Shown piece by piece: positions 17,110 through 45,128 of a stretch of DNA of 45,128 bases. Position 1 is the stretch's first letter; the number at the start of each line of letters is the position of its first letter. The position numbers were made by a program, and so were the translations under genes. Origin of the DNA: Actinomycetes bacterium (GTDB taxonomy: Bacteria > Actinomycetota > Acidimicrobiia > Acidimicrobiales > Acidimicrobiaceae); assembly GCA_021784785.1 (NCBI GenBank), contig JAJYHJ010000017.1, positions 1 through 45,128 of the forward strand. The letters are read 5' to 3'. The notes under the pieces were generated by a model. The model was not told the origin of the DNA, searched no databases, and saw nothing but the letters and a program-made list of their open reading frames with translations.

Positions 17110-17637
17110 GTGTCGCTTTTACCAATAAGAACATATGGAGATCCAGTCCTTCGCTCTAGAGCGAAGGAGATAGAGGATATAGATGGAAAGTTGGCCGCTT
17201 TAGTTGAGGACATGATTGAAACCATGTACGATGCTCCCGGGGTAGGCTTAGCGGCTCCTCAGGTGGGTGTGGACAGACGACTCTTTGTCTACGACATAGG
17301 CGAAGGCCCGAAGGTGCTGGTCAATCCCGAGATAAAAGAGAGCTCTGGGGAATGGGTTTACGAAGAAGGGTGTCTGTCGGTTCCTGGACTGTGGTGGCCA
17401 ATTACGAGACCTAAAGACGTCTTGATAGTGGGGATTGACCTCGAAGGCAACGAGGTTGAAGTTGAAGGTTCCGAACTCCTCGGTAGGGTATTTCAGCACG
17501 AGTTTGATCACCTAGAAGGTGTACTACTTGTAGAGAGATTGGATGAGGATCAGAGAAAAAAAGCGATGAAGATCATCCGAACTGAGGTTGTAAAGGGTGG
17601 TGGTTCTATGATGCGTCCGCCCAAAGAACAAGAGTAA
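17110..17637 (+). CDS. def: peptide deformylase
   Basis: This enzyme removes the formyl group from the N-terminal methionine of new proteins. The three family motifs are present in the 175-aa protein: GVGLAAPQ (44-51), EGCLS (86-90, metal ligand Cys88) and HEFDH (130-134, two His ligands and the catalytic Glu). The start is GTG 17110. It lies 4 bases before fmt, whose product adds the formyl group to the initiator tRNA, so the two form a functional pair. Confidence 0.95.
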   Translation: MSLLPIRTYGDPVLRSRAKEIEDIDGKLAALVEDMIETMYDAPGVGLAAPQVGVDRRLFVYDIGEGPKVLVNPEIKESSGEWVYEEGCLSVPGLWWPITRPKDVLIVGIDLEGNEVEVEGSELLGRVFQHEFDHLEGVLLVERLDEDQRKKAMKIIRTEVVKGGGSMMRPPKEQE

Positions 17638-31154: not shown

Positions 31155-31168
31155 CGACAAAGTTTTTG
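31155..31168 (+). repeat. 14-bp direct repeat, copy 1
   Basis: CGACAAAGTTTTTG occurs here and again at 31252-31265, 97 bp apart. Such an exact 14-mer is unlikely by chance within a 100-bp leader. It may be a binding site or the trace of a local duplication. Confidence 0.5.
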
Positions 31169-31179
31169 TAACAGAGGCT

Positions 31180-31225
31180 TTGTAACGTAGTGTGGGATTG
31201 TCTAGATAGTTCATGGTGGAACTAT
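31180..31225 (+). promoter_or_regulatory. candidate CRISPR operon promoter with operator dyad
   Basis: TTGTAA (31180-31185), a 17-bp spacer and TAGATA (31203-31208) form a weak promoter. Overlapping its -10 and expected start is the perfect dyad ATAGTTC-N6-GAACTAT (31206-31225). A dimeric regulator bound there would block transcription; the first gene of the operon encodes a protein with a winged-helix-like C-terminus, so autoregulation is a fair guess. Confidence 0.35.
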
Positions 31226-31251
31226 GGGTTCATTTGATGTTTGAAGGGGAG

Positions 31252-31265
31252 CGACAAAGTTTTTG
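31252..31265 (+). repeat. 14-bp direct repeat, copy 2
   Basis: This second copy of CGACAAAGTTTTTG includes the TTG start codon of the first CRISPR gene. It lies just after the likely ribosome-binding site AAGGGGAG (31244-31251). Confidence 0.5.
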
Positions 31266-32375
31266 GAGAAAGTATTAGTGGCGACCTGCGGACTTAGTCC
31301 GCAGGTCATTACGGAGTCTGTGTATGCACTCGCACTTTGTGCTGAGGTTCCGTTTTACCCCACATCGCTAAAGGTAATCACGACCCTAGAAGGTAAAGAA
31401 AGAGTGCTTAGCACGCTATCTAGCCACGGGGAGGGTTGGCTTTTGAGGTTGTGCCAAGAGTACGATCTAAAGCCGCTGGACATCTGTGAAGAGGATATCT
31501 TGGTTCCCCCTAAGAACGTCACAAAGGGTGGAAGTCTAGAAGATATTAGAACCAGTCGGGATAATGCGATGACAGCGGACACCATAGCGCAGTTTGTAAA
31601 GGAACTGACCGAACGTGAAGATGTTATGGTACACGCATCGATTGCGGGTGGTCGAAAGACGATGGGGTACTTACTCGGATACTCACTTTCTCTTTTTGGT
31701 CGCGTGCATGACAGTCTCTCACACGTTTTGGTCTCCCCTGAGTACGAGTCCCTAGAGGGGTTTTACTATCCATCCAAGGAACCATTGTTGCTATCATCCA
31801 AGTTCGGCACTACTTTAGATGCTTCTGCGGCTCAAATCGATCTGGCGATTTTACCTTTTGTACGGCTGAGATCTTTTCTCCCCAATCACCTTCTTAATGG
31901 AAAGGTAAGTTTTTCTGAGACCGTGAATGCCATACTGTTAGGTCCAAATCTACGAGATATAAGGGTTGAGGTTAGGACATCAAGGGTGATCATCGATGAA
32001 AGTTCCATAGTACTTACGCCAATTCAAGTTGTAGTACTGAGTTACCTTATTGAAAGGGCCAAGGCGGGAGAGGGTTTGCAGTTTCCTCGAAAGAACATTT
32101 ACGATACTGAACTTGGCAATGAGCTCTTGGCTGAAGCGAAGAGACTTGGCGTTGATCTATCCCTTAGACAAGACACGCGGAATCGCCTCGCTCGGGGAGT
32201 GGACAGCTCCTACCTATACACCTTGTTTTCAAGGCTTCGTAAGAGTATTGCAAATGTTGTGGGAATTGACATAGCCCGAGTGCTTTTAAAAGAGACAAAG
32301 TCCGGGGTCGGGGAGAAGAGCGTTGAGTTTGGGGCCGATCTTAACGCTGTGACCTTCAGCTCGCAATGCGATTGA
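31263..32375 (+). CDS. CARF protein of the NE0113 family (Csm6/ring-nuclease type) with winged-helix-like C-terminus
   Basis: The 370-aa protein begins like NE0113-family CRISPR proteins (LVATCGLSPQVITESVYAL, about 5-23) and has SIAGGRKTMGYLLGY (126-140), the family's nucleotide-binding loop. Residues 1-170 therefore form a CARF domain, expected to bind cyclic oligoadenylate made by Cas10. The C-terminus contains LTPIQVVVLSYLIE (251-264) and YLYTLFSRLRKSI (318-329), which resembles the winged helix of OmpR-type regulators. It may be a second-messenger-responsive transcription factor, a ring nuclease that clears the signal, or both. No HEPN RxxxxH motif is evident. TTG 31263 matches the family start. 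Confidence 0.75.
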   Translation: MEKVLVATCGLSPQVITESVYALALCAEVPFYPTSLKVITTLEGKERVLSTLSSHGEGWLLRLCQEYDLKPLDICEEDILVPPKNVTKGGSLEDIRTSRDNAMTADTIAQFVKELTEREDVMVHASIAGGRKTMGYLLGYSLSLFGRVHDSLSHVLVSPEYESLEGFYYPSKEPLLLSSKFGTTLDASAAQIDLAILPFVRLRSFLPNHLLNGKVSFSETVNAILLGPNLRDIRVEVRTSRVIIDESSIVLTPIQVVVLSYLIERAKAGEGLQFPRKNIYDTELGNELLAEAKRLGVDLSLRQDTRNRLARGVDSSYLYTLFSRLRKSIANVVGIDIARVLLKETKSGVGEKSVEFGADLNAVTFSSQCD

Positions 32376-32465
32376 AGGGAGAGATTTGAAAGTTTTCAAT
32401 CAACATGTGGTGAAGGTTCATCTGATACGCTTGGGCTATCCGTTTCGCGACTTCGGAGGTTGTAT

Positions 32466-33569
32466 ATGAGAGAGATGGCGCTATATAGAGTTAGTTTTTC
32501 GACTCCAGCGCTTTTAGGCAGCGCAGAACCTACCGTTGCAGAACTGCGAGTTCCGCCATTTCGATCCCTCCTGCGAAGTTTTTGGCGAGTGGTATATGCA
32601 GCAGATGGAGAAGTGCTCGATACAAACGCGATGTTGAGTGCTGAACAACAGATCTTTGGAGGAGTAGGCGGAAGAGGTGGCGGAAGTGAATCCTTTCGCC
32701 CCAGAAGATCATTAGTGGAATTGGCGATCACGAATGACAAAGGTAAGCCGACACTTTATCCAATTGAGAACGGATATGAGTTTACGCCAAAGCCAAGGCG
32801 CGGGAGTGGTGAACTTGCACAGCGTCTGGATTACCTCGGGTACCCGAGGGTGACTACAAATAATAAGGTTACAAGTTACAAGCAGTCGCTACTTTATACC
32901 GATAAAGAGTTTGTTTTAAGAGTTGCGTGGCCAGCGACAGACTCCTTGAGAAGCTCATTGTCAGAACAACAGGCGGAACAACTTTTTTGCGCTCTTGAAC
33001 TTATGTCGCTTTTCGGTACAGTGGGAAATCGAAGTAGACACGGCTATGGCTCCTTCTGTATGTTCAATATGGATGAGGACGAGCCATTCTATTCCTCTAG
33101 AGAAAAGCTGGAGGGTGAACTCTCCCGAGTTGCCTCAAAGTACCTGAGGTCCTGGGACAGGTGCTTTGGAGAGAAGATGGATATGTGGCCCAGATCCTTT
33201 GCAAGCCTAGAAAATAATAGCAAGCTGTCCGTGTTTATGAGCGAACAGTCCTTTAGCACCATTGTTGATGCTATGAAATCGTTGAGCGAAGTTTGGAGTA
33301 GTGCGCGCAAAAAGATGGGATCTGACAAAGAAGTTTTGGGAAGTCAAGGTAAAGGTCGAGATGTGTGCGCTTCTGAGAGATGGCCGTCGCAGCTGAGAGC
33401 CAAGATATTTCCAATTGAGGTAGAGGATAGAAAGAGGCAATTTGTCGTTGTGTTGTTTCAACTGCCGTATGGGCCCCAATCTCACAAGGAGATTTGGAGG
33501 AAGGCCCATAACTTTCTGTTCGACAATGGGTATCAACCCCTGTTCAATACAATTGGAGGGGTGAACTGA
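32466..33569 (+). CDS. cmr1: type III-B RAMP protein Cmr1
   Basis: Cmr1 caps the end of the Cmr complex opposite the crRNA tag and helps bind target RNA. The 367-aa protein shows the family pattern: a first strand LYRVSFSTPALLGSAEP, then ELRVPPFRSLLRSFWRVV (the Cmr1 RPPSxRGxLRFWxR motif, somewhat altered) and EQQIFGGVGGRGGGS, the Gly-rich loop. RSRHGYGSF (about 192-200) is the second RAMP signature. ATG 32466 lies six bases after GGAGG (32455-32459); an upstream TTG at 32460 is less likely. Confidence 0.85.
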   Translation: MREMALYRVSFSTPALLGSAEPTVAELRVPPFRSLLRSFWRVVYAADGEVLDTNAMLSAEQQIFGGVGGRGGGSESFRPRRSLVELAITNDKGKPTLYPIENGYEFTPKPRRGSGELAQRLDYLGYPRVTTNNKVTSYKQSLLYTDKEFVLRVAWPATDSLRSSLSEQQAEQLFCALELMSLFGTVGNRSRHGYGSFCMFNMDEDEPFYSSREKLEGELSRVASKYLRSWDRCFGEKMDMWPRSFASLENNSKLSVFMSEQSFSTIVDAMKSLSEVWSSARKKMGSDKEVLGSQGKGRDVCASERWPSQLRAKIFPIEVEDRKRQFVVVLFQLPYGPQSHKEIWRKAHNFLFDNGYQPLFNTIGGVN

Positions 33570-33571
33570 AG

Positions 33572-36487
33572 GTGGATAATGAAAGAGCTCAGCTGCGTTT
33601 TAAGAGAAAACTTGCAGCATGGATTCATGACCCCGCAGAGAAGGCACTCGTTCTAATGCGTGATCCCAGTGGGCACGAGGGAGGGACGGTTCGATTCTTA
33701 AAGGAGAAGCTGAACCTTGAAGATAGAAGTTGGTTTAATGCTACGGCCGATCACTGGGCATCTGCGAGTGATAGACCCCAGTTTCCTAACTCTCCGCGTG
33801 AAAATGGTTTCATGCGTACGATCTCCGTAATCTTCTCCAAGGATCCGGTGATTAAGCATCCAATTTCAGGGGAAGAGTTCGATCTCTTGAACCTAGAGTC
33901 AATCGACATAGGCGAGATGAAAGCAGCGTCCTTCGATCACTTTGAGAAGCTTATAAGAACTGGTAAAGATGGGATAGATTATGAAGGGAGCTTTCTAGCC
34001 TTTTGGAGATTTGGTCCCGTTTCCCCACATGAAGGCCTAGCAGGTCTATGGTCTGTGCTTCCAGCAGATACAAGAGTGCCAGATCACAGCATCTGGAGCC
34101 ATCTGGACCTTACGAGTGCCTTTGGTACGGCTATGGATAGCGATCCGGCGCTATTTGAGCTTGCAATTGGTCCAGTTCAGAGCTTTATCAAGCAGTCACG
34201 ATCCACAGCGGACCTTTGGTCAGGATCTCATCTACTAGCCTCACTCTCATTTAGGGCTATGTCGGTGGTGATAGATCGTTATGGTCCTGACTCTGTGCTG
34301 TTCCCCTCTCTTAGAGGTCAACCCCTTATGGATCTTTGGTTGTTGCGTCGGGCACAGAAAATATCTGAGGAAGAGTTCAGTTGGTGGAAGGATAAGCTAT
34401 CCGGTGCACTAGGACGTGGACAGTCCGACTCCTCACCCCTTTATTCTGCCTCTTTGCCTAATAAATTTGTTGCGCTCGTGCCCTTTGACGAAGTCGAGGG
34501 TCTCGCAAAAGATATCAAAGACGACCTCAGAACGTATGTCTTGGAGTTGGGAATGAAAGGCGCAAAGAAACTCTTTCAAAGCGCATACGACCGGCATATG
34601 CAAGTTCAGATCAATCGTCAAATGGCAGAGTTTCCTGAGATGACATGGTCGACTACTCGATGGCCAGGGAAAAGAGAGTCTATGTCTGAGGCATCTGGAA
34701 TGTTAAAAGAGCTTCTAGGTGAGTTTCTTGGTGATAGCGATCGAGATAATGTACAAATGTTTTCCAAGCCCGCTTGGAAAGTACTGGAGCGAGTTGGAGA
34801 GTTGCCGGAGCCCGATTTTTTTTATAGGGCTAATCCAGGAGTCCTGTTTCCAGCAGTACTTGGAGTGGTTCAGGCACTCCAAGCTTCCTCAAAGAGCGAG
34901 AGGCTGTTTTCTGGTAGTACAGAACGTGACTTTCGGTGCTCTACTTGCGGAGACAGGGAATGGTTATGCACAGAACAAGAGGCTTTAGCTTATGAGAAAC
35001 ATTGGCCTTCTCCTGGCATTGGGAGGTCCGAGTCTATCTGGACGATGCTTGCTCGTAAACGTCCGCATTTGGCAAAAAAAAAGAGCGGAGAGTATCTTTG
35101 TGCTTTATGTTCCCTAAAGCGAAGCTGGCCGCTGCTTTTTAACGACGAAATAAAACATCTGCTTGGCCTGAAAATGCGGCGTTATATCGTCTCAACGCAT
35201 GCAATGGCTGCCACAATGACCCTTATCAAAAACTTAGAAAATCTCAGAGAAGTGGAAGACCGATCGAACGATAGTGACGATGAAAATAGTGAAGAAGATG
35301 CTTTGCTACCAGCACTTCCTCCAAAGTTGTATATCGAGGCTCGGAAGCTTGGCCAAGTCAATGAGTTGCAGGAACAATTAACAGAATTAGAGGACTACCA
35401 AGGCGTCCAGGAATCCAAAGCGACAGGTGAGTCCTACTATGGACTTTTGAAGATGGATGGCGACTCCATGGGTCGACTGCTTCAAAGCGGACATGAACGT
35501 AAGTACATCGATAGCTGGCATCCTAAGGTAAGGAAAAGCGCAGAAAATGTGGCTGAAGAGGTCCCTTCTCTCAGAGAGTACCTTGACTCTCGACGTCTTG
35601 TCTCGCCAGCATTTCAAAGAAGTGTCTCGGAGGCTTTGGGCAACTTCTCAACGTTTATGGTTAGGAAGATTTTAGAGCGATATCTATACGGGAAAGTGGT
35701 TTACGCGGGTGGTGACGACCTTTTGGCCTTTATACCAACGATTGACATATGTTCCTCTTTGGGTATGCTTCGTCAAGGATTTTCGGGCCAAAGTACGTTG
35801 GGGGGCGTGAATTACTTTGAGAAGGTCGACATGAAGGTAGGCGGAGGTTTCTGTTGGGACAACGATTCGCGATCGACGGGAGTACCTTTGCGAATCCTAC
35901 TTGGAAGTGAAGTGGCAACTGCTAGCTTCGGAGTGGTAATTGCCCATGCGAAGGCACCGCTTCCAGCGGTGCTATCTCAAGTGGATAGGGCCGAAGGTCT
36001 TGCAAAAAGTATGGGCCGTAACGGGTTTTGTATATCCATTATGAAACGAAGCGGTGGTGATGTGGGTATATTTGGATCTTTTGGCTCTCAAAGTTCAAGC
36101 GAAATACTTTCACCGCTCTTGACCCTAGATCGTCTTATCGGACTATTTAGTGACGAGTACTCAAGACGAGCAGCTTACATAGCAAGTACTTGGTTAGCAA
36201 GTCTTCCACCTCTGAATTCTGGATCGAGTGATCAAAGTGAATGGGAGGAAATGGTCGTATCAATGCTGAGATATCAGTTTGAACGTCAGATGAAAGACCC
36301 GGACGGGATCATGTCTGAGCAGGCTGACAAGGTAATTCGTTCTCTTGTTGTAAACGCCGTCAATGGAATGCTCAGACCTATCGACGCCCAATCATCTGAT
36401 GCGGTAATGTCATCTGAGGCGAAGGCTATCTCGTCGGTTCTTTCGGTGGCAGAGTTCTTGGCCCGGAGTAAGAGGAAAGTATCGTGA
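33572..36487 (+). CDS. cas10: Cas10/Cmr2, signalling subunit of the type III-B complex
   Basis: Cas10 is activated when the complex binds target RNA and makes cyclic oligoadenylate. The 971-aa protein has an HD dyad in AAWIHDPAEKALVL (His19-Asp20), zinc cysteines CSTC (456-459) and CALC (510-513), a first palm motif LKMDGDSMGRLL (626-637) and the cyclase motif GGDD (713-716, YAGGDDLLAF). Both HD and GGDD are intact, so DNA cleavage and signal synthesis are plausible. GTG 33572 follows directly on cmr1, and the end overlaps cmr3 by 4 bases (GTGA). This fits with the CARF-type genes at both ends of the operon. Confidence 0.95.
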   Translation: MDNERAQLRFKRKLAAWIHDPAEKALVLMRDPSGHEGGTVRFLKEKLNLEDRSWFNATADHWASASDRPQFPNSPRENGFMRTISVIFSKDPVIKHPISGEEFDLLNLESIDIGEMKAASFDHFEKLIRTGKDGIDYEGSFLAFWRFGPVSPHEGLAGLWSVLPADTRVPDHSIWSHLDLTSAFGTAMDSDPALFELAIGPVQSFIKQSRSTADLWSGSHLLASLSFRAMSVVIDRYGPDSVLFPSLRGQPLMDLWLLRRAQKISEEEFSWWKDKLSGALGRGQSDSSPLYSASLPNKFVALVPFDEVEGLAKDIKDDLRTYVLELGMKGAKKLFQSAYDRHMQVQINRQMAEFPEMTWSTTRWPGKRESMSEASGMLKELLGEFLGDSDRDNVQMFSKPAWKVLERVGELPEPDFFYRANPGVLFPAVLGVVQALQASSKSERLFSGSTERDFRCSTCGDREWLCTEQEALAYEKHWPSPGIGRSESIWTMLARKRPHLAKKKSGEYLCALCSLKRSWPLLFNDEIKHLLGLKMRRYIVSTHAMAATMTLIKNLENLREVEDRSNDSDDENSEEDALLPALPPKLYIEARKLGQVNELQEQLTELEDYQGVQESKATGESYYGLLKMDGDSMGRLLQSGHERKYIDSWHPKVRKSAENVAEEVPSLREYLDSRRLVSPAFQRSVSEALGNFSTFMVRKILERYLYGKVVYAGGDDLLAFIPTIDICSSLGMLRQGFSGQSTLGGVNYFEKVDMKVGGGFCWDNDSRSTGVPLRILLGSEVATASFGVVIAHAKAPLPAVLSQVDRAEGLAKSMGRNGFCISIMKRSGGDVGIFGSFGSQSSSEILSPLLTLDRLIGLFSDEYSRRAAYIASTWLASLPPLNSGSSDQSEWEEMVVSMLRYQFERQMKDPDGIMSEQADKVIRSLVVNAVNGMLRPIDAQSSDAVMSSEAKAISSVLSVAEFLARSKRKVS

Positions 36488-37617
36488 TGAGGTACTTTTT
36501 TGTTCGACCAGTCGACGTTGTAATGCTGCGTGGCAACAAACTTTTTGGCGAAGCTGGGAGTTACGGTGATGTCGTTGTGCCTCCCTGGCCATCTGTCTTT
36601 GCAGGGGCATTTCGAAGTTATCTGTGGAACACACTTTCAGCTAATAAGAGGCGACAGATAATTGGAGATCCGAGGATCTGGGGTACTTTTCGACTTAGAT
36701 GGTTATCAGTCGGCCGCATCCATGGAACAGAGTTAGATTCGATGCTGGTGCCTTTGCCTAGTGACGTTGTGGTCTTAATGGAGGAAGGTAAGGCAGTAGG
36801 AATTTTAAAACCAAAAACAATCGATCGAGGGTCGATCACGTCATCTTCGGTACTTCCCATGCATATGGTAGCGTCAACGAGTGCCCCTGGAAAGACGACA
36901 AATCAAGGTCTTATTTCGAGTGCTGGCGTGAAAAAGTGGCAGGAGAGTCGACGGGGCATAGAGGTGTCCCAAGTAGGGCAGATTTTTATGTCCGATACCC
37001 GTCTGGGGATAGGTATGAACGTGGATTCGCGTACTGCCTCAGAAGGAGCTTTATACACATCAGATAGCGTAACAATGCGAGAAGGGTACGGTTTTCTGGT
37101 AGGCATCTGTGGTGAAGAGGGATTTTTACCCAAGAAGGGACTGCTTAGGCTTGGAGGAGACGGCAGGGGAGCTGAGTTTCTTGAAGTCAAAGCGAAGGAA
37201 CAGGTTGACCTTGCTACAAGACCTTCCGAGCTATTGAGAAATTCCGACAGATTGAAGATCGCTGCTGTGACGCCTCTCATCTTTGAAGATGGCTGGATTC
37301 CAGATGGAGTAAGGCAGCAGGATAACGACTATGTATTGGAGCTTGAAGGCTTCTCAGCAAGGTTGGTTTCGGTAGCTTTGAAAAGATATGAAACTATATC
37401 AGGATGGGACATGGCTAACCGTAGGCCAAAACTGGCACGACGTGCCGTTCCACCGGGTTCTGTGTACTTTTTTGATAGGTGCGAGGGAAATAAGGAGACA
37501 TTTTACAAGTGGTGCCGTGGAGGTATGCGTGATATGAGAAGGAACGAAGGCTTGAGAAGTACTGAGATTGAGGGATTCAACACCGTAGTTGTTGGTCTTT
37601 GGAGAGATAAGGAATAA
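36484..37617 (+). CDS. cmr3: type III-B RAMP protein Cmr3
   Basis: Cmr3 is the Cas5-like subunit that holds the crRNA 5-prime tag beside Cas10. The 377-aa protein has the family start YFFVRPVDVVMLRGNKLFGE and the loop VVPPWPSVFAGAFRSYLW (30-47). PPGSVYFFDRCEG near the C-terminus is also typical. The start is GTG 36484 or ATG 36487, overlapping the stop of cas10, with AGAGGAAAG upstream. Confidence 0.88.
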   Translation: MMRYFFVRPVDVVMLRGNKLFGEAGSYGDVVVPPWPSVFAGAFRSYLWNTLSANKRRQIIGDPRIWGTFRLRWLSVGRIHGTELDSMLVPLPSDVVVLMEEGKAVGILKPKTIDRGSITSSSVLPMHMVASTSAPGKTTNQGLISSAGVKKWQESRRGIEVSQVGQIFMSDTRLGIGMNVDSRTASEGALYTSDSVTMREGYGFLVGICGEEGFLPKKGLLRLGGDGRGAEFLEVKAKEQVDLATRPSELLRNSDRLKIAAVTPLIFEDGWIPDGVRQQDNDYVLELEGFSARLVSVALKRYETISGWDMANRRPKLARRAVPPGSVYFFDRCEGNKETFYKWCRGGMRDMRRNEGLRSTEIEGFNTVVVGLWRDKE

Positions 37618-37621
37618 GGAG

Positions 37622-38557
37622 ATGTTTGAGAAGGCTGCGGTAATATTGTACTACGCCATTACCCCTACGCATATGGGGGCTGGTGATGGAGTCGGAGTGG
37701 TTGACGCTCCGATCCAGCGTGAGATTATGACTGGATATCCGGTGCTCTATGGCTCAGGATTAAAAGGTGCCATACGTCATGACCTCTCAAGAGAGTGGAA
37801 AGATCAGAGGCCTCGAGACCTTACTTTGATCTTTGGCCCAGAGTCGAAGGAGTCGTCGGAGCACGCCGGTGCAGTATCGTTTAGTGACGCGAATATAGTC
37901 CTATTTCCAGTAAAGTCGATGGAGAAAGGCTTTGTCTACGTGACCTCGCCTCTTTCTCTAGCTCGACTAGCTCGTCTTATCGAGGTTTCCAATGGCGATG
38001 CGGACTGGGGCATCGAAGCTCCGGACGACTCAGAAGCATTTGTTGCGTCAGGTTCTTCAGTTCTAGAGGTTGCCTTAGAAGATGATGGGGTAAAGAAAGT
38101 ATCGCTTGAGTATTTTGAGTTTAACCTGAAAGGCAGCGAAGAGCTTTTAAAAGCTACTACCTGGATCGCCGAGCATATAAATGCATACGATGTGGATGGG
38201 TTTTTTGCCAAGAAACTCCGTGAAGACATAGTGCTTATCTCGGAGAAAAACTTCGGTTTTTTTGTCAACAACCATACTTCAGTGGAACCTCACGTAAAAA
38301 TTGATCCAAAAACTGGAACTGCTGAAGGGAGCGCGCTCTTTTATGTCGAGAACTTGCCTCCTGAAACCCTTTTGGCAGGACTTGTCATGGCATCGAGAGT
38401 GAGGAGTCCGGAAGCGCAGGATAAAGACGCAAGCTGGGTACTTGACCAACTGAGCGATGAGATCGATAAAGAGATAGTGCAGTTTGGTGGAGATGCTACC
38501 TATGGACGTGGACTTATGCAGGTGGGGGTAGTTGAGTTGGATTTGAAGGAGAGTTAG
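37622..38557 (+). CDS. cmr4: type III-B backbone subunit Cmr4 (target RNA nuclease)
   Basis: Cmr4 is the Cas7-like backbone that cuts target RNA every six bases. From ATG 37622 (311 aa, AAGGA at 37609-37613) the sequence begins as in the family: YYAITPTHMGAGDGVGVVD, APIQREIMTGYP and LYGSGLKGAIRHDL. Asp28 aligns with the catalytic Asp26 of Pyrococcus Cmr4, so RNA cleavage should be active. The frame is open from 37589 inside cmr3, but the later ATG fits the family start. GGDATYGRGLMQV near the end is the glycine-rich RAMP loop. Confidence 0.93.
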   Translation: MFEKAAVILYYAITPTHMGAGDGVGVVDAPIQREIMTGYPVLYGSGLKGAIRHDLSREWKDQRPRDLTLIFGPESKESSEHAGAVSFSDANIVLFPVKSMEKGFVYVTSPLSLARLARLIEVSNGDADWGIEAPDDSEAFVASGSSVLEVALEDDGVKKVSLEYFEFNLKGSEELLKATTWIAEHINAYDVDGFFAKKLREDIVLISEKNFGFFVNNHTSVEPHVKIDPKTGTAEGSALFYVENLPPETLLAGLVMASRVRSPEAQDKDASWVLDQLSDEIDKEIVQFGGDATYGRGLMQVGVVELDLKES

Positions 38558-38968
38558 GTGCCAGTTTTACACACTTCTCTTGAACAGTCTCGGGTTCAAT
38601 ATGCGTATAAAGCCGTAACGGAGGCAAAGAGCGACGGCAAAAGGTTTACAAGTTATCGATCTCGTACTAAAGGTATTGGTAATTTGATTATGAACGACGG
38701 ACTGATCGGAGCTATGACGTTTATTTCGACTAAAAATGGCAAGGAGGATGGTGGAGAGATCCTCTTTCGCCATATGATAGGTTGGCTAGCCATTAGATTC
38801 CCAAATGACTTCAAACACGCTCGATCCAATAGCGTTACATCTGCCATAGAAGACCTGGTAAATGTGAGGGACTCCTCAACGTATATGCGTATCACTGAGG
38901 AGGCAATGTCCTTGGTGAGATGGTTGAGACAGATGGTTGACGTCTGTAAATCTGGAGATGAAGGATGA
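38558..38968 (+). CDS. cmr5: type III-B small subunit Cmr5
   Basis: Cmr5 is a small helical protein that stacks along the Cmr4 backbone. The 136-aa product matches the family pattern: RSRTKGIGNLIMNDGLIGAMTFISTK in the middle, and SSTYMRITEEAMSLVRWLRQMV near the end. GTG 38558 directly follows the cmr4 stop and the end overlaps cmr6 by 4 bases, so the subunits are translated as a unit. Confidence 0.9.
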   Translation: MPVLHTSLEQSRVQYAYKAVTEAKSDGKRFTSYRSRTKGIGNLIMNDGLIGAMTFISTKNGKEDGGEILFRHMIGWLAIRFPNDFKHARSNSVTSAIEDLVNVRDSSTYMRITEEAMSLVRWLRQMVDVCKSGDEG

Positions 38969-40203
38969 GTTCTAATGGCGGCTTGCAATTAAGAGGTGGA
39001 AACCCAAAGGAAAGTAACCCTACTCCTCTTGTGCCTAATTACCTCTACCGAAGGCTCAATGGGAGTGAGGGTCGATTTCCCTATGACCAACGAAGTGGAG
39101 GGCAAAGGTTTCACGGTATGGTGAAAATGCTCAAGGACGCAAAAGGCAACAAGGACGAAAAGAAGTCAGTCATAGATGGGGTTGTGGGCGCCGGGAACTC
39201 AGATGGTGCTTCTGGGGTTGACAAAACTACATGGGAGGCAGTCTGTAAGCGTCAGAGTGAGATTCTTTTGCGATGCTACGGAGATAACGTTTTGGCGCTA
39301 CCCGTAGTTCTCACCTCCCCTCTTTTATGTGGGATCGGTGTGGAGAGCCTGACGGAGGTGGGCTTTTCATTCCAGAACCCTTATGGATTACCCTACTATC
39401 CGGGCTCGTCAATAAAGGGTTTGGCAAGAATGTGGGCATGCGAATTAGGCTTTGACGAGCGGAGAATCGATAATTTATTTGGCTCTAGAACTTGCCGGGA
39501 TCAAGTAGGTTCAAAGGGAGGTCTCTGGTTTTTGGATGCTTTCCCTGAACCAAGGTACAAGCAAGAGATTCTTACGCCACATCTCCAAAAATACTTACAA
39601 GGCGAATGTGACGAACCATCAGATTATTTTACGCCCATTCCTATCAAATTTGTAGCGATCTCCCCAGGTGCCAGGATGTGGATATGGGTTGTTGGTCGAG
39701 GGGACCAAGATGACTCTTGGCGTGTGCAGATCCAAAAGATCTTACAGCATGCTCTCGACTTTGGTATTGGGGCAAAAACCTCATCGGGATACGGACTCGG
39801 TTTCGTAGATGAACAGCTCTTTAAAGAGAATGCTCTTCTAGTAGAGGGATATAAGAGGGAGAGCGTAAGAGAGCTTGAAAAAAGACGTAAAGAGGAAACT
39901 CTGGCGTCTATGCCTCCAGAGGAAAGGCGTCTGGAGGAGATGCTTGAACATAAGTTAAGCATTCCCAGTCGTAGCAGCAAGTACATATCGATCATGAAGG
40001 ATGCTGAAAAGGATCCGCCGGATGAAGCTAGGGACTCGTTTTTAGCCTTTGTGGCCAGATTAGCCCAAGATGCATTCATTGAAGAAGATAAGTGGCTAAC
40101 TAACGATGAGCTTGCTTCATCAAGTCTTCCTAAGAAGAAGAGATTTCTAAAAGAGGATGTCCGGCTGATCTTAAAGTATATATCGTCAAACACGGTCGAG
40201 TGA
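38965..40203 (+). CDS. cmr6: type III-B RAMP protein Cmr6 with charged C-terminal extension
   Basis: Cmr6 is a Cas7-like subunit near the top of the complex. In the 412-aa protein residues about 105-290 carry the family motifs: LLCGIGVESLTEVG, YYPGSSIKGLARMWA (144-158), NLFGSR (170-175) and GIGAKTSSGYG (267-277). After about residue 290 comes an extra ~120-residue highly charged, helical tail (ELEKRRKEETLASMPPEERR and on) that an ordinary Cmr6 lacks. Its role is unknown. The start is ATG 38965, overlapping cmr5. Confidence 0.88.
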   Translation: MSSNGGLQLRGGNPKESNPTPLVPNYLYRRLNGSEGRFPYDQRSGGQRFHGMVKMLKDAKGNKDEKKSVIDGVVGAGNSDGASGVDKTTWEAVCKRQSEILLRCYGDNVLALPVVLTSPLLCGIGVESLTEVGFSFQNPYGLPYYPGSSIKGLARMWACELGFDERRIDNLFGSRTCRDQVGSKGGLWFLDAFPEPRYKQEILTPHLQKYLQGECDEPSDYFTPIPIKFVAISPGARMWIWVVGRGDQDDSWRVQIQKILQHALDFGIGAKTSSGYGLGFVDEQLFKENALLVEGYKRESVRELEKRRKEETLASMPPEERRLEEMLEHKLSIPSRSSKYISIMKDAEKDPPDEARDSFLAFVARLAQDAFIEEDKWLTNDELASSSLPKKKRFLKEDVRLILKYISSNTVE

Positions 40204-40204
40204 T

Positions 40205-40516
40205 ATGTCAACATATCTAGTGACTCGTCATAAAGGGGCTGCTGAGTGGGTTCTTTCGAATGCAGCCAAATACTCCGTTGAGATTGATAGAGTGATTCCG
40301 CATCTCGATATTGAACTTCTGATTCCCGGAGATGTGGTGGTTGGAACGCTTCCGATTCAGATGGTGGCGTTGTTGACGGAACTAGGAGTTGGATATGTGC
40401 ACCTTTCCTTGACGGTTACGATGGATATTCGAGGTATGGAACTCACGTGCGAAGAGATGTACCGGCGCGACGCCCGGCTAGAGAGGTTCAAGGTTTGTAG
40501 AGATGAACCAGAATAG
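40205..40516 (+). CDS. csx16: CRISPR-associated protein Csx16 (ring nuclease family)
   Basis: The 103-aa protein matches the Csx16 (VVA1548) family along its whole length: TRHKGAAEW (7-15), HLDIELLIPGD (33-43), VVGTLPI (45-51), HLSLTV and RGMELTCEEM (76-85). Csx16 belongs to the small type III accessory proteins proposed as ring nucleases that degrade cyclic oligoadenylate. ATG 40205 lies one base after the cmr6 stop. It overlaps the CARF-nuclease gene by 14 bases, pairing a likely off-switch with an effector. Confidence 0.85.
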   Translation: MSTYLVTRHKGAAEWVLSNAAKYSVEIDRVIPHLDIELLIPGDVVVGTLPIQMVALLTELGVGYVHLSLTVTMDIRGMELTCEEMYRRDARLERFKVCRDEPE

Positions 40517-41735
40517 CGGGGGTATATGTGCGCAGATAAGTTTCGTGTCAGAAGAATCGGTGCCTAATGCGATAGCTTTGCTAGAAGAGAAACCAGATCT
40601 CTTGATTCTCGTTTCCTCTACCAAGATGCGAGGTTCACGACCCTATAACCAATTACGTGACTTTGCATTGAGCAGAGGAACCGAAGTGGTTACATTTGGA
40701 GACGAAGCCAAAGGAACGGATCTTTTGGACCTAGGTGCTTTAGCGGATGAAGTGGCGAAGTATATAAGTGGTCGTAGAGACATAACGTCTGTCTCGATCA
40801 ACTTAACCGGTGGTCCTAAGACGATGACGATTGTCTTTATGGAGTTTGCTAAGTCTCTCAAAGATCTGAAATCGATGTGGCTATATATCGATACTGATGA
40901 GAGAGTGATTTGGAGGTCGAAGCCGTCACACTTTTCCCCAAATCGTTCCCTTATGCAGGGGTATCTTTCCTTTGAGGAGTACCTCTACGTTCAAGGGTAT
41001 GAGGTAATGCGTAAACATCCTGAGTCCTATGGCGATGTCGTCAAAAATAGAGAAAAGCTGACCTTCCATCTGGCGGAAGTTGCGAGAGATAGTGCATCGC
41101 AAAAAGGTCATAGCCGCTCCATTTTGCAAGAATTACTCACACTCTTTACTAAAGCTCGTGTGAGTGATCGTGGAATAGCCTATAAGGACCAGTATCTCTC
41201 GAACGTGGATCAACGCTCTGTAAAGGTACTGGAGATGCTGACGGACTTCGGTCTTTTGGGATTGGAAAAAGTTGCGAACCATGAAAATCAATACCGAATA
41301 ACTTTTCAAGACGTACCCTCAGCGCGATATATTGGAGGCGCTTGGCTAGAAGAGTTTGCTTGGCTCCAATTAAGCAAGGCGGCTCAAGGGTGTAAATTAG
41401 ATTCAAACACCGTCATAAGCTCTGCTGTGGTAGTGAAGCCGAGAGAAGGGTCTGAGGATTCTTCAAATGAGATTGATGTTTTGTGCCTCAATCGAAACAA
41501 GATGTTGTTCGTCGAGTGCAAGTCCGGAGCCAAACCCGACAAAGAGGGTGGGGTTGCAACCTCTAAGCTGGCTGATTTGACTCGTAAAGTTGGTGGTCGC
41601 CTGGCGACATCAATTCTTGTAGCATCGGCACCTAGGCAAGAAATTCCATCTGGAAGAAGCACGGCAGTGAAGGTCTTTGCTGCGGAAGATCTCTTTGAGT
41701 TGGAGCGCTATTTTACGAAATGGTTGACCTCATAA
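40503..41735 (+). CDS. CARF - PD-(D/E)xK nuclease effector, Card1/Can2 type
   Basis: This 410-aa protein has an N-terminal CARF domain (about 1-145) with the ligand loop SINLTGGPKTM (98-108), a middle helical region with a winged-helix look (about 205-265) and a C-terminal PD-(D/E)xK nuclease. The nuclease residues are visible: GGAWLEEFAW (278-287), NEIDVLC (322-328, Asp325) and VECKSG (337-342, Glu338 and Lys340). This is the layout of Card1/Can2 (DUF1887) proteins, which cut DNA and/or RNA when cyclic tetra- or hexa-adenylate binds. It is probably the main cell-level effector here. ATG 40503 follows GTTTGTAGAG; the end overlaps the next gene by one base. Confidence 0.87.
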   Translation: MNQNSGGICAQISFVSEESVPNAIALLEEKPDLLILVSSTKMRGSRPYNQLRDFALSRGTEVVTFGDEAKGTDLLDLGALADEVAKYISGRRDITSVSINLTGGPKTMTIVFMEFAKSLKDLKSMWLYIDTDERVIWRSKPSHFSPNRSLMQGYLSFEEYLYVQGYEVMRKHPESYGDVVKNREKLTFHLAEVARDSASQKGHSRSILQELLTLFTKARVSDRGIAYKDQYLSNVDQRSVKVLEMLTDFGLLGLEKVANHENQYRITFQDVPSARYIGGAWLEEFAWLQLSKAAQGCKLDSNTVISSAVVVKPREGSEDSSNEIDVLCLNRNKMLFVECKSGAKPDKEGGVATSKLADLTRKVGGRLATSILVASAPRQEIPSGRSTAVKVFAAEDLFELERYFTKWLTS

Positions 41736-42961
41736 TGGGGCTAGAGATCCTAGTTGAGCTTGAACGTATTCCGTTGGTGACGGAAGGAGGCTTAGCGGAT
41801 CGCTGGTTCTTGGAGGGGTGCCTTACCGAGGCAGTTGAAGTCATAGCATCTCTGATTACGAAGAGGGCTCCTGGAGAGCTTGAGAGATCAAGAGGGCTAG
41901 CAGCCCTAAATCGCCTCTTGACCCAACCTCCCTGGATTGCTTCAATGAGGGGTGACGGTGGTACGTTTGCAAGGTTTGTATGGCCAGGTTTCGGTGGTCC
42001 TGAGCTTGACCTGATTTTATCAATGGGCGACTCTGGGAGAGTCGGTAGTGTGCATATATGCAGGGTAGACGGTATAGCTGAAGACGGCGTGATCTATCGT
42101 CCGGCTAGAGATGGAAAAGGCCTAGGGCAAACGGATATCTCTCTAAGTGCGCCTCTAAATGTGGTATATCCGAGCCCACGGGACATTGTAATAGGTAGGC
42201 GTAAAGTTGACTATACAAAGGTGAAACTGCGAACCGAGGATGACGAATATAATTTCTCTAGGCAGGGTTCTGATCAGCTCAGTGGAGTAACCGTAAGGTT
42301 TGCAAAGTCTGTTCAAGATGCTCGGTACCTTGTGCGAGTTGTCGAATCTTTCAGAGCAGCACTTATGTCCAAGGCAAGCAGTCCTTTGGCGGCCTTTATC
42401 TCAGGAAAGCGTGGCGACGGCGTTCGACTAGATAGTCACCAACACCCTTATCTTGTTCCCCGACTTAGTGCCCATGGAATTGATGGCATTGTGATAGTTA
42501 CCGAACGGAAATGGTCATCAGTTATCTTTGAGCTGACTCGAAAGATCAAAGATCTTTATGTTCCTAGCTTACATAAAACACTGATAGCTGGAGTCACTGT
42601 TGGTGGCATTGAGGATGTCTTTGGTGCTCCCGCTCATTACCGAGTGTTTCAAAGTTATACGCCATACGTTCCGTCGCGCTACATGCACAAAAATCAAGAC
42701 CTTCTTGAGTTTGTAACTCAAGACATCGCGGCGGAACTGTCTAGGCGTGGCGTGAACTCCGATTTTCAAATAACACCGCTTAAGGGAAACGTGATTGAAC
42801 GACCGGTGGTGCTATTGGATCGACGAACTCCCAGGAGCAAGGAGAACAAAGTCTGTTATGGATATGAGTTAAAGATTGAGATGGCTGACGCTACTAATTC
42901 CCGCCTTCTTCTTGGCCGATTGAATCACTTTGGGACTGGGGTATTTCGTGGTGTTGAGTGA
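41735..42961 (+). CDS. csb2: Csb2-like (GSU0054 family, Cas5/Cas6) protein, probable crRNA-processing enzyme
   Basis: From ATG 41735 this is a 408-aa protein. The C-terminal half resembles Csb2 of subtype I-G: ISGKRGDGVRLDSHQHPYL (with two His), then HGIDGIVIV, FQSYTPYVPSRYM and finally LLLGRLNHFGTGVF, the glycine-rich RAMP loop. Csb2 is a Cas5-Cas6 fusion, its Cas6 part cutting pre-crRNA. The N-terminal 200 residues are less clear. No other Cas6 lies in the operon, so this is the best candidate for crRNA processing for the Cmr complex; the histidines are possible catalytic residues. The frame is open from 41720. Family assignment is by remembered motifs only. Confidence 0.65.
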   Translation: MGLEILVELERIPLVTEGGLADRWFLEGCLTEAVEVIASLITKRAPGELERSRGLAALNRLLTQPPWIASMRGDGGTFARFVWPGFGGPELDLILSMGDSGRVGSVHICRVDGIAEDGVIYRPARDGKGLGQTDISLSAPLNVVYPSPRDIVIGRRKVDYTKVKLRTEDDEYNFSRQGSDQLSGVTVRFAKSVQDARYLVRVVESFRAALMSKASSPLAAFISGKRGDGVRLDSHQHPYLVPRLSAHGIDGIVIVTERKWSSVIFELTRKIKDLYVPSLHKTLIAGVTVGGIEDVFGAPAHYRVFQSYTPYVPSRYMHKNQDLLEFVTQDIAAELSRRGVNSDFQITPLKGNVIERPVVLLDRRTPRSKENKVCYGYELKIEMADATNSRLLLGRLNHFGTGVFRGVE

Positions 42962-44609
42962 ATTAGGAGAGATACCGTCGACAGTTCCGCTTTCTATTCT
43001 TCGAAGCTTCCTTTACTGCGAGCGTCGTGCTTATCTGGAGTGGGTAGATGCTTACGATGTCAAAACCTCTGATGACGAGCATGGAAAGGACTCGTTATTT
43101 TTACATCAGCAGCTAATCAAACGGTGGGAAATGGAATTTGGTGAAAAGATAGAGGAGTCATACTTTGTGTCTGAAGATTTCAAAATGGAAGGCAAAGTCG
43201 AATACGTCGAAGACACCTTAGAAAAGCCCGTACTCTCTCGATCTACCCCGGTGCTTCTGCGCAACACTTATCCGCCTCCCGACGTAGCGGCGTGGCCCAA
43301 CGACTTAGTCTTGGCTACTGCCATCGCAGCTTTGTTCGAAAGTTTAGCGACTGATTCCAACTCGGCGTGGATCTTCTATGGACAGGGAAACCAAAATAGT
43401 AGCCGTCATTTAGTAGAGATTACGACAGAATTGCGGACTCAGTTGGCTGCTCAAATTACGACACTGTTTGAGATGGTGCGCAGCGGTACGCTTCCGAAAA
43501 TCATAGATGATCTCGATCGCTGTTCACGATGTCCCTTTGCGGCACTGTGCCATCCCGATGAGGTGGGACCACAAGAGGGTAAGCCGATTTGGGTATCAGA
43601 TGATGTAAAGCGCCCGATGTATGTGACAGGAGCTGATCTATCGATTAACAAGGTTGGCGGACGTTTCGAGGTGCGCCGTCGTGAGGAAGTTATAGATGAT
43701 GTAAAAGCCATAGAACTATCACAATTGAATTTGTATGGTGGTGTTCGTATAAGCACACAAACGGTGTCGGAGTTGCTCAAACGCGACGTGCCCATTTTAT
43801 ACTTCAGCGCGGGAGGTTGGTTTAATGGAATAACGACCAGTTCCTTGTCGGGGAGAATCGATCTGAGAATTCGCCAGTTCCATAGATTCCAATACGGGGA
43901 TCTTGAACTTGCCAAATCGGTTGTCTCTGCAAAGGTCAGAAATTATCGTACGCTCCTAAAGAGGAACTCTGTAACGGTTGACTCGAGTGCGCTCAAACGC
44001 CTGAAGGAAATTTACTCAAGGACCATATTCGACTGCTCGGAGTTTCAAACTCTCCTCGGGCTTGAAGGTATTGCAGCAAAAATCTACTTCGAGAACTTTG
44101 CTTCGATGATTAAATATAGAGATGATGGCTACTCGAGCACGTTTGACTTTCAGGGAAGAAACCGTCGGCCACCCTTGGATCCGATTAATAGCATGCTTTC
44201 GTATGCATATGCTGTATTGATCAAGGATATATTTGTTGAACTTTTAGGTGTTGGTTTTGATCCTTTCTTAGGATTTTATCATAAGCCTCGCTTTGGGAGA
44301 CCTGCACTAGCCTTAGATTTGGCGGAGGAGTTTAGACCGCTCGTAGCGGATTCTATTGTGCTTACGTTGATTAATAAGAGGATGGTAGACGATGAGGATT
44401 TTTTAATCCATCCGCGGGGTGTCACGCTTACTAGCTCGGGAAAGAAGAAGCTGCTGATGGCTTACCAATCTCGATTGAACTCGGAAGTGATTCATAAAGA
44501 ACTGGGATATCGTATCACCTACAAGCGAGCTCTCGAGGCGCAGGCTCGGATACTAGCAGCGGTTCTAGTTGGAGATCGAGATGGTTACACACCTTTCATT
44601 ACTAGGTAA
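42948..44609 (+). CDS. cas4-cas1: Cas4-Cas1 fusion, Cas4 active site apparently degenerate
   Basis: This joins a Cas4 domain (about 15-215) to Cas1 (about 225-555), the form typical of subtype I-G. Numbered from the open frame at 42930, Cas4 keeps four cluster cysteines (Cys30, 198, 201, 207) and a His (59). The positions that usually read xIDLxE, PVxYKRG and QLCAQ instead read KVEYVE, PVLSRST and LVLATA, so the catalytic Asp, (D/E)xK and Gln seem lost. Cas1 looks active, with LLGLEG (Glu379), FYHKPRFGRP (His451) and DLAEEFRP (463-470). The likely start is GTG 42948 or 42951 after GGACTGGGG, overlapping csb2. Confidence 0.88.
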   Translation: MVLSELGEIPSTVPLSILRSFLYCERRAYLEWVDAYDVKTSDDEHGKDSLFLHQQLIKRWEMEFGEKIEESYFVSEDFKMEGKVEYVEDTLEKPVLSRSTPVLLRNTYPPPDVAAWPNDLVLATAIAALFESLATDSNSAWIFYGQGNQNSSRHLVEITTELRTQLAAQITTLFEMVRSGTLPKIIDDLDRCSRCPFAALCHPDEVGPQEGKPIWVSDDVKRPMYVTGADLSINKVGGRFEVRRREEVIDDVKAIELSQLNLYGGVRISTQTVSELLKRDVPILYFSAGGWFNGITTSSLSGRIDLRIRQFHRFQYGDLELAKSVVSAKVRNYRTLLKRNSVTVDSSALKRLKEIYSRTIFDCSEFQTLLGLEGIAAKIYFENFASMIKYRDDGYSSTFDFQGRNRRPPLDPINSMLSYAYAVLIKDIFVELLGVGFDPFLGFYHKPRFGRPALALDLAEEFRPLVADSIVLTLINKRMVDDEDFLIHPRGVTLTSSGKKKLLMAYQSRLNSEVIHKELGYRITYKRALEAQARILAAVLVGDRDGYTPFITR

Positions 44610-44612
44610 CTC

Positions 44613-44906
44613 ATGAAACTCAGGCGTTATCTAGTATGCTACGATGTAGGAGATCCAAAGAGGCTTCGGTCGCTCGCTAAATGCCTTGAGTCCTTTGGTG
44701 ACCGTATTCAATACTCCGTTTTCATCTGCGACCTTCCTCTTGTGGAACTGAACCGAATGAAGTATCTCATAACAAAGATTACCAACAATCAAGAAGACTC
44801 AGTGATTGTTATAAATCTGGGCGTATGTAGGCCGGAGTTGGAGGAGAAGATTTTGTTGATGGGCAAGCTCGCAATTCGCCCAAACTACGTTTCGAGAGTT
44901 TACTGA
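44613..44906 (+). CDS. cas2: CRISPR adaptation protein Cas2
   Basis: Cas2 forms the structural core of the Cas1-Cas2 spacer integrase. The 97-aa protein has the ferredoxin-fold pattern RYLVCYDVGDPKRLRS (5-20, with the conserved Asp11), GDRIQYSVFICDL (29-41) and a closing DSVIVINLG strand. ATG 44613 is three bases after the cas4-cas1 stop, in the same operon. It is the last gene before the presumed CRISPR array. Confidence 0.93.
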   Translation: MKLRRYLVCYDVGDPKRLRSLAKCLESFGDRIQYSVFICDLPLVELNRMKYLITKITNNQEDSVIVINLGVCRPELEEKILLMGKLAIRPNYVSRVY

Positions 44907-45069: not shown

Positions 45070-45128
45070 GTTTCCATGCTCGAAGGGGCGTGGCCCCATT
45101 ACGACTCGGGAATTTGCACTCCGCAGGT
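45070..45128 (-). CRISPR. edge of a CRISPR array: one repeat and part of a spacer
   Basis: A 36-bp element at 45070-45105 begins GTTTCCATGC, holds a GGGGC-GTG-GCCCC hairpin (45085-45097) and ends ATTACGAC. Read leftward it starts GTCGTAATG and ends GAGCATGGAAAC, like the 36-bp M. tuberculosis repeat, which starts GTCGT and ends GGAAAC. The last eight bases, ATGGAAAC, would be the crRNA 5-prime tag. This supports transcription toward the cas genes. The remaining 23 bases (45106-45128) would be spacer. Only one copy is inside the window, so repetition itself is not seen. Confidence 0.6.

Follow-up and report, generated by a model that had tools for sequence, protein, structure and literature searches.

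Little is known, to our knowledge, about the switching on of type III CRISPR operons in bacteria. The leader of one such operon lies in the window analysed here (the whole 45,128-nt stretch of DNA, contig C24 of a 2.39-Mb draft genome), and raises the question of whether it holds an operator and which protein would read it. A preliminary description had pointed to a dyad and a 14-bp direct repeat in this leader, and had proposed, citing CARF-HTH proteins such as Csa3, that the first gene product controls its own operon. Our analysis supported a regulatory element in the leader and, as its probable regulator, the product of the first gene, with a different element and a different protein family from those first suggested.

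A type III-B operon headed by an NE0113 gene

The genes and the array downstream of the leader were as follows.

31263–32375, + strand: Cas_NE0113 gene, with an N-terminal CARF domain and a C-terminal predicted OmpR/PhoB-type winged helix
31938–32372, + strand: predicted winged-helix domain of its product, residues 226–370
32460–44906, + strand: rest of the operon, comprising a RAMP gene in the cmr1 position, cmr2/cas10, cmr3, cmr4, cmr5, cmr6, csx16, a Card1-like nuclease gene, a Csb2-like gene, a cas4/cas1 fusion and a gene in the cas2 position
45070–45105, + strand: GTTTCCATGCTCGAAGGGGCGTGGCCCCATTACGAC, the first repeat of the CRISPR array, at the end of the contig; another 24 copies lie on contig C147

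The presence of cmr2/cas10 with cmr3–cmr6 identifies the system as type III-B CRISPR-Cas, and the last gene (44613–44906) is named cas2 from its position only. Inside this type III-B operon lie a Csb2-like gene (41720–42961, below the family cut-off) and the cas4/cas1 fusion (42930–44609, close to Cas4g/Cas1g of type I-G), so that adaptation module and processing gene look as if derived from a type I-G system. On C147 (L036), after position 1749, the repeat end plus GATGACCGCTGTCCTTC recurs once behind the last full repeat, forming a degenerate array end.

The 370-residue product of the 31263 gene scored above the curated cut-offs of both profiles of the Cas_NE0113 family, PF09623 (3e-33; 115.7 bits against a cut-off of 23) and TIGR02584 (193.3 bits against 80.65), and is therefore a full member of this family, which is annotated as 'CRISPR-associated ring nuclease Csm6'. 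Csa3 models gave no match; NCBIfam returned only NE0113 and weak Csx14 matches and Pfam only NE0113, placing the protein in a family separate from Csa3. An AlphaFold2 model of the whole product (pLDDT 93) matched CARF proteins, and a separate model of the C-terminal domain (pLDDT 94.6) had its best Foldseek matches among OmpR-family DNA-binding domains, namely BaeR (probability 0.98), CovR (0.84), and AdeR and ArlR (0.80 each), with weak E-values of 0.03 and above. Pfam and NCBIfam profile searches found no HEPN domain, and this, together with the winged-helix-like C-terminal fold, sets the product apart from Csm6/Csx1 ribonucleases. The models thus predict a protein that works like a CARF-wHTH transcription regulator. 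Direct regulation of transcription by NE0113 proteins was predicted in 2014 by Makarova and colleagues (PMC4012209).

The dyad and other palindromes of the window

The first candidate operator is the dyad.

31206–31225, no strand assigned: dyad ATAGTTC-N6-GAACTAT, judged not to be an operator

Its sequence, ATAGTTC-ATGGTG-GAACTAT, is exactly as first described, and the 20-bp string occurs a single time in the genome. A hexamer TAGATA does overlap it, at 31203–31208, as the candidate -10 that had been noted; the hexamer is weak, however, and a sigma-70 scan returned no promoter there. A repressor covering this -10 from the dyad, with its perfect 7-bp arms, its uniqueness in the genome and its closeness to a possible -10, is nevertheless very improbable: the dyad was found in neither leader of the two same-genus relatives (G001 and G003), it differs from the family operator described below and misfits its spacing, and its size is expected by chance, with 28 inverted repeats of at least 7 bp and loops of at most 10 in the window against 14–31 in simulated sequence. 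We rejected it as an operator because it is not conserved in relatives; it is probably a chance occurrence.

The longest perfect palindrome of the window, GACCTGCGGACTTAGTCCGCAGGTC, has 12-bp arms and lies at 31283–31307, just inside the NE0113 gene; synonymous codon choice would rarely produce it there (P 0.0007). We considered it as a further operator or an RNA switch and judged it incidental, being absent from the family, and Rfam searches returned no RNA element. The truncated first CRISPR spacer (45106–45128) ends in TCCGCAGGT, which is also found in one arm of this palindrome; these 9 nt are all that the two share, probably by chance, and self-targeting by this truncated spacer was rejected. 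The second longest, TCCTTCGCTCTAGAGCGAAGGA at 17147–17168, is a perfect palindrome with 11-bp arms and no loop.

A short element of the repeat region is conserved in the genus

The 14-mer CGACAAAGTTTTTG was confirmed at 31155–31168 and 31252–31265, its second copy spanning the TTG start codon at 31263–31265. It is the sole exact 14-mer pair in the window with copies at most 120 nt apart, and has no further exact copy in the genome. Between the two copies lies a third, imperfect one (31169–31185) that had been missed, and with it the repeat unit becomes ACA(A/G)A-N3-TTTG, read as ACAAA-GTT-TTTGT (31157–31169), ACAGA-GGC-TTTGT (31171–31183) and ACAAA-GTT-TTTGG (31254–31266).

A search for further members near the window, through 197 relatives and samples of ~400 genomes from the class and from the phylum, yielded few, and genus-level footprinting therefore rests on three genomes. 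The NE0113 gene is present in two more genomes of the genus, with protein identities of 58 and 56%, and their leaders are otherwise saturated, with 28 and 33% identity in register. Neither leader carries the 14-mer, and in this comparison, which the preliminary description had called for, both elements it named proved absent while a shorter one was kept in position.

31165–31172, + strand: TTTGTAAC, positionally conserved in the genus, overlapping the 3' end of the first repeat copy

Counted back from the first homologous codon, it starts at 101 nt in the window and in G003 and at 100 nt in G001; in 3000 simulations a shared run of even 6 nt at such a position never arose. A second GTAAC follows the first by 14 nt in the window and in G003. 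A search for the composite TTTGTAAC-N9-GTAAC gave a single match in the window's genome, a single match in G003 and no match in 38 further genomes. The repeat region thus holds the only conserved cis-element of the leader, as the idea of a regulatory repeat would have it, but what is conserved is TTTGTAAC and not the 14-mer.

G001 (96% complete) keeps the NE0113 gene and TTTGTAAC, has no match to cmr2, and has non-CRISPR neighbours around the gene. The element therefore follows the regulator gene and not the CRISPR operon. This orphan gene, with its TTTGTAAC, occupies L009 3959–5098, between a GntR-family gene and a methyltransferase gene. A further TTTGTAAC of G001 lies on the minus strand at L009 7916–7923, ~97 nt before a DNA methyltransferase gene; one such match is expected by chance in that length.

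NE0113 genes of several phyla share a palindrome at a fixed distance from a -10

We then read the sequence upstream of the gene in 80 NE0113 loci from public genomes of several phyla. The palindrome CAAGCTTG occurred within -250 to +30 of the NE0113 gene in 57 of the 80 loci, the next commonest 8-nt palindrome in 5, and the longer form RCAAGCTTGY in 56. The symmetrised consensus was YSRCAAG|CTTGYSR, and its fifth positions from the centre exchanged symmetrically, being complementary in 95% of cases against 72% expected from the columns. In 50 non-redundant sites, a -10-like hexamer started exactly 33 nt downstream of the centre, with a mean score of 4.5 against 1–2 at other offsets, and carried A at position 2 and T at position 6 in 34; no clear -35 was seen at 16–18 nt in these sites. 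This arrangement would place the operator ~45 bp upstream of the predicted start, a distance at which many activator-dependent promoters have theirs. Without the -10, RCAAGCTTGY was not enriched genome-wide, so the short motif alone is no evidence. NE0113 genes that have diverged further, carried by plasmids of Vibrio, Photobacterium, Aeromonas and Rhodothermus, lack the operator.

Upstream of NE0113 in the Methylococcales loci L047 and L096, ACAAATTTGT replaces RCAAGCTTGY; it is AT-centred and nearer to the window's ACAAA...TTTGT. CGGCAAGCTTGCCG belongs to the promoters of NE0113 genes in Accumulibacter, Rhodoferax and Ectothiorhodospira.

All 80 loci were chosen for carrying NE0113, so another regulator common to them may be the binder; plasmid Cas10 loci, considered as a control lacking NE0113, proved too distant to serve. 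In one alternative, NE0113 would be only a cyclic-oligoadenylate ring nuclease or effector, its winged helix a relic serving dimerisation, and the family palindrome the site of another regulator. The NCBIfam name and the Crn1-type ring nucleases among the fold matches speak for this reading. We nonetheless consider it improbable, since no HEPN domain was found in the protein, its C-terminal fold matches DNA-binding domains, and the operator accompanies NE0113 genes across phyla with single-base geometry; ring nuclease and DNA-binding activities could, moreover, coexist.

The palindrome also precedes effector and adaptation genes

Other operator copies within the loci showed the same -10 spacing, 22 of 106 site-strands being strong, and same-geometry copies stood before cmr1-type RAMP genes and cas10. 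Across 26 whole NE0113 genomes, the operator plus -10 pattern matched 31 times and its reversed control 4 times. In two Accumulibacter genomes a match lay ~15 kb from the NE0113 gene, directly before cas2-cas1, an arrangement repeated in several Accumulibacter relatives (cas2 there being read from the protein start). In one Methylohalobius genome the gene behind the match is small, with cas6 and a Csx1-like gene next in line, and Allochromatium plasmids carried copies 80–90 nt before several CRISPR-region genes, including csx16 in A. tepidum. The conserved elements, their geometry and the genes they precede are all direct results of computation. From these sequences, the family palindrome looks like an operator controlling whole type III systems, and is probably an activator site.

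The cas2 promoters of the Accumulibacter relatives (L136:4781–4830 and L137:4256–4305, also L146, L147, L149–L151 and L154) consist of the operator and a -10 TATCGT at the fixed spacing. An ATG follows close behind this -10, so the cas2 transcript is probably nearly leaderless.

Proposed sites in the window's own leader

Neither the family core CAAGCTTG nor RCAAGCTTGY was found in the window's leader, and the candidate sites there are the repeat copies.

31155–31171, + strand: proposed regulator site 1, CGACAAA-gtt-TTTGTAA, the first repeat copy (putative binding)
31169–31185, + strand: proposed site 2, TAACAGA-ggc-TTTGTAA, a tandem imperfect copy with the same 3-bp spacer as site 1
31252–31268, + strand: proposed site 3, CGACAAA-gtt-TTTGGAG, the second repeat copy, over the start codon and not in relatives' leaders
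31196–31201, + strand: GATTGT, a possible -10 by position only, 33 nt from the site 1 centre and a weak match to TATAAT

Site 1 is the leader's best pair of inverted family half-sites at free spacer, equalled by 1.4% of simulated leaders (p about 0.014). The two relatives keep neither its left half-site nor the 3-bp spacer, nor the spacing to the -10. G003 has a copy of CAAGCTTG towards the end of its NE0113 gene (L039:5092), which was rejected as chance, its flanks and -10 not fitting.

On the protein side, a long branch with good support sets the three Ferrithrix-lineage proteins apart from the remaining 78, and recognition-helix position 319 is Y or H in this lineage and S in most others. 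Residue 319 may covary with the operator, S occurring with GCAAGCTTGC and D/E/Q with ACAAGCTTGT; with 2 supported independent pairs the comparison is underpowered on the tree, and the covariation of operator and recognition helix is suggestive only.

In the Ferrithrix lineage, TTTGTAAC might alternatively be the site of a different host-encoded regulator, or a core promoter element with TTGTAA as -35, and NE0113 would not bind there. Indeed, TTGTAA-N17-TAGATA can be read at 31180–31208, and what is conserved in TTTGTAAC is a single half with a direct repeat, not a palindrome, and lacks the family core. We regard this as rather unlikely, because each of the two genomes with TTTGTAAC-N9-GTAAC has a single copy, placed before the NE0113 gene, which is not the distribution of a core promoter element, and because TTTGTAAC stays with the orphan NE0113 gene in G001. 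The sites in the window's leader are likely NE0113 sites.

A model for control of the operon by NE0113

As a whole, we favour, with somewhat more confidence than doubt, the explanation that NE0113 is a CARF-wHTH regulator of the type III-B operon that it heads, with the family palindrome as its operator and a diverged version in the window. An NE0113 dimer would bind YSRCAAG|CTTGYSR ~45 bp upstream of the transcription start, where the bound protein would substitute for the missing -35 and recruit RNA polymerase to the -10 at fixed spacing. With one operator before the NE0113 gene, cmr1 or cas10, and cas2-cas1, the system would form one regulon. The window belongs to the Ferrithrix lineage, an outgroup whose recognition helix differs; its operator would have diverged to CGACAAA-gtt-TTTGTAA with two imperfect copies, TTTGTAAC being the half conserved in the genus, and its transcript would start near 31208. 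Cyclic oligoadenylate on the CARF domain would switch DNA binding and so couple transcription to infection. We infer that NE0113 is the binder, that it activates rather than represses, that this is its ligand and that the model transfers to the window's own sites. The original proposal that the first gene product regulates its own operon is thus plausible, through its CARF domain, its predicted winged helix and the family palindrome before its own gene and other CRISPR operons, while the binding itself is conjectural.

Known systems offer partial parallels. Csa3a and Csa3b, which bind a pseudopalindrome upstream of CRISPR operons and regulate adaptation and cmr genes (PMC8844856), likewise combine a CARF sensor with a winged helix, predicted in NE0113; Csa3, however, is a different, archaeal sequence family mostly tied to type I-A, whereas NE0113 has an OmpR/PhoB-like winged helix and a bacterial -10 at fixed spacing. 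In Methanosarcina mazei, the CARF-HTH protein MM_0565 binds the promoter of its own gene (PMC7465815); unlike NE0113, it comes from an archaeon, and no defined motif was found for its binding. OmpR/PhoB-type activators (BaeR, CovR, OmpR) share the predicted fold of the DNA-binding domain. Their sites lie just upstream of the -35 or replace it, and are usually direct repeats under a phosphorylation switch, in contrast to the palindrome and CARF ligand domain proposed for NE0113.

According to a 2022 review (PMC9704534), no non-nuclease CARF effector other than Csa3 had been characterised by experiment. The literature that we searched, which covered few subscription papers, held no operator or regulon for NE0113, and the NE0113 family operator looks undescribed so far. 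With its single-base geometry, its occurrence in dozens of genomes and its place ahead of both effector and adaptation genes, this candidate operator opens the 2014 prediction for NE0113 to direct testing and calls the current 'ring nuclease Csm6' label into question. Tentatively, and with the odds somewhat against it, NE0113 proteins could be cyclic-oligoadenylate-responsive activators of bacteria, in which the messenger that Cas10 produces during infection alters binding to one operator class driving effector, crRNA-processing and adaptation genes. If true, this would be a transcriptional feedback loop for the type III CRISPR systems of many phyla.
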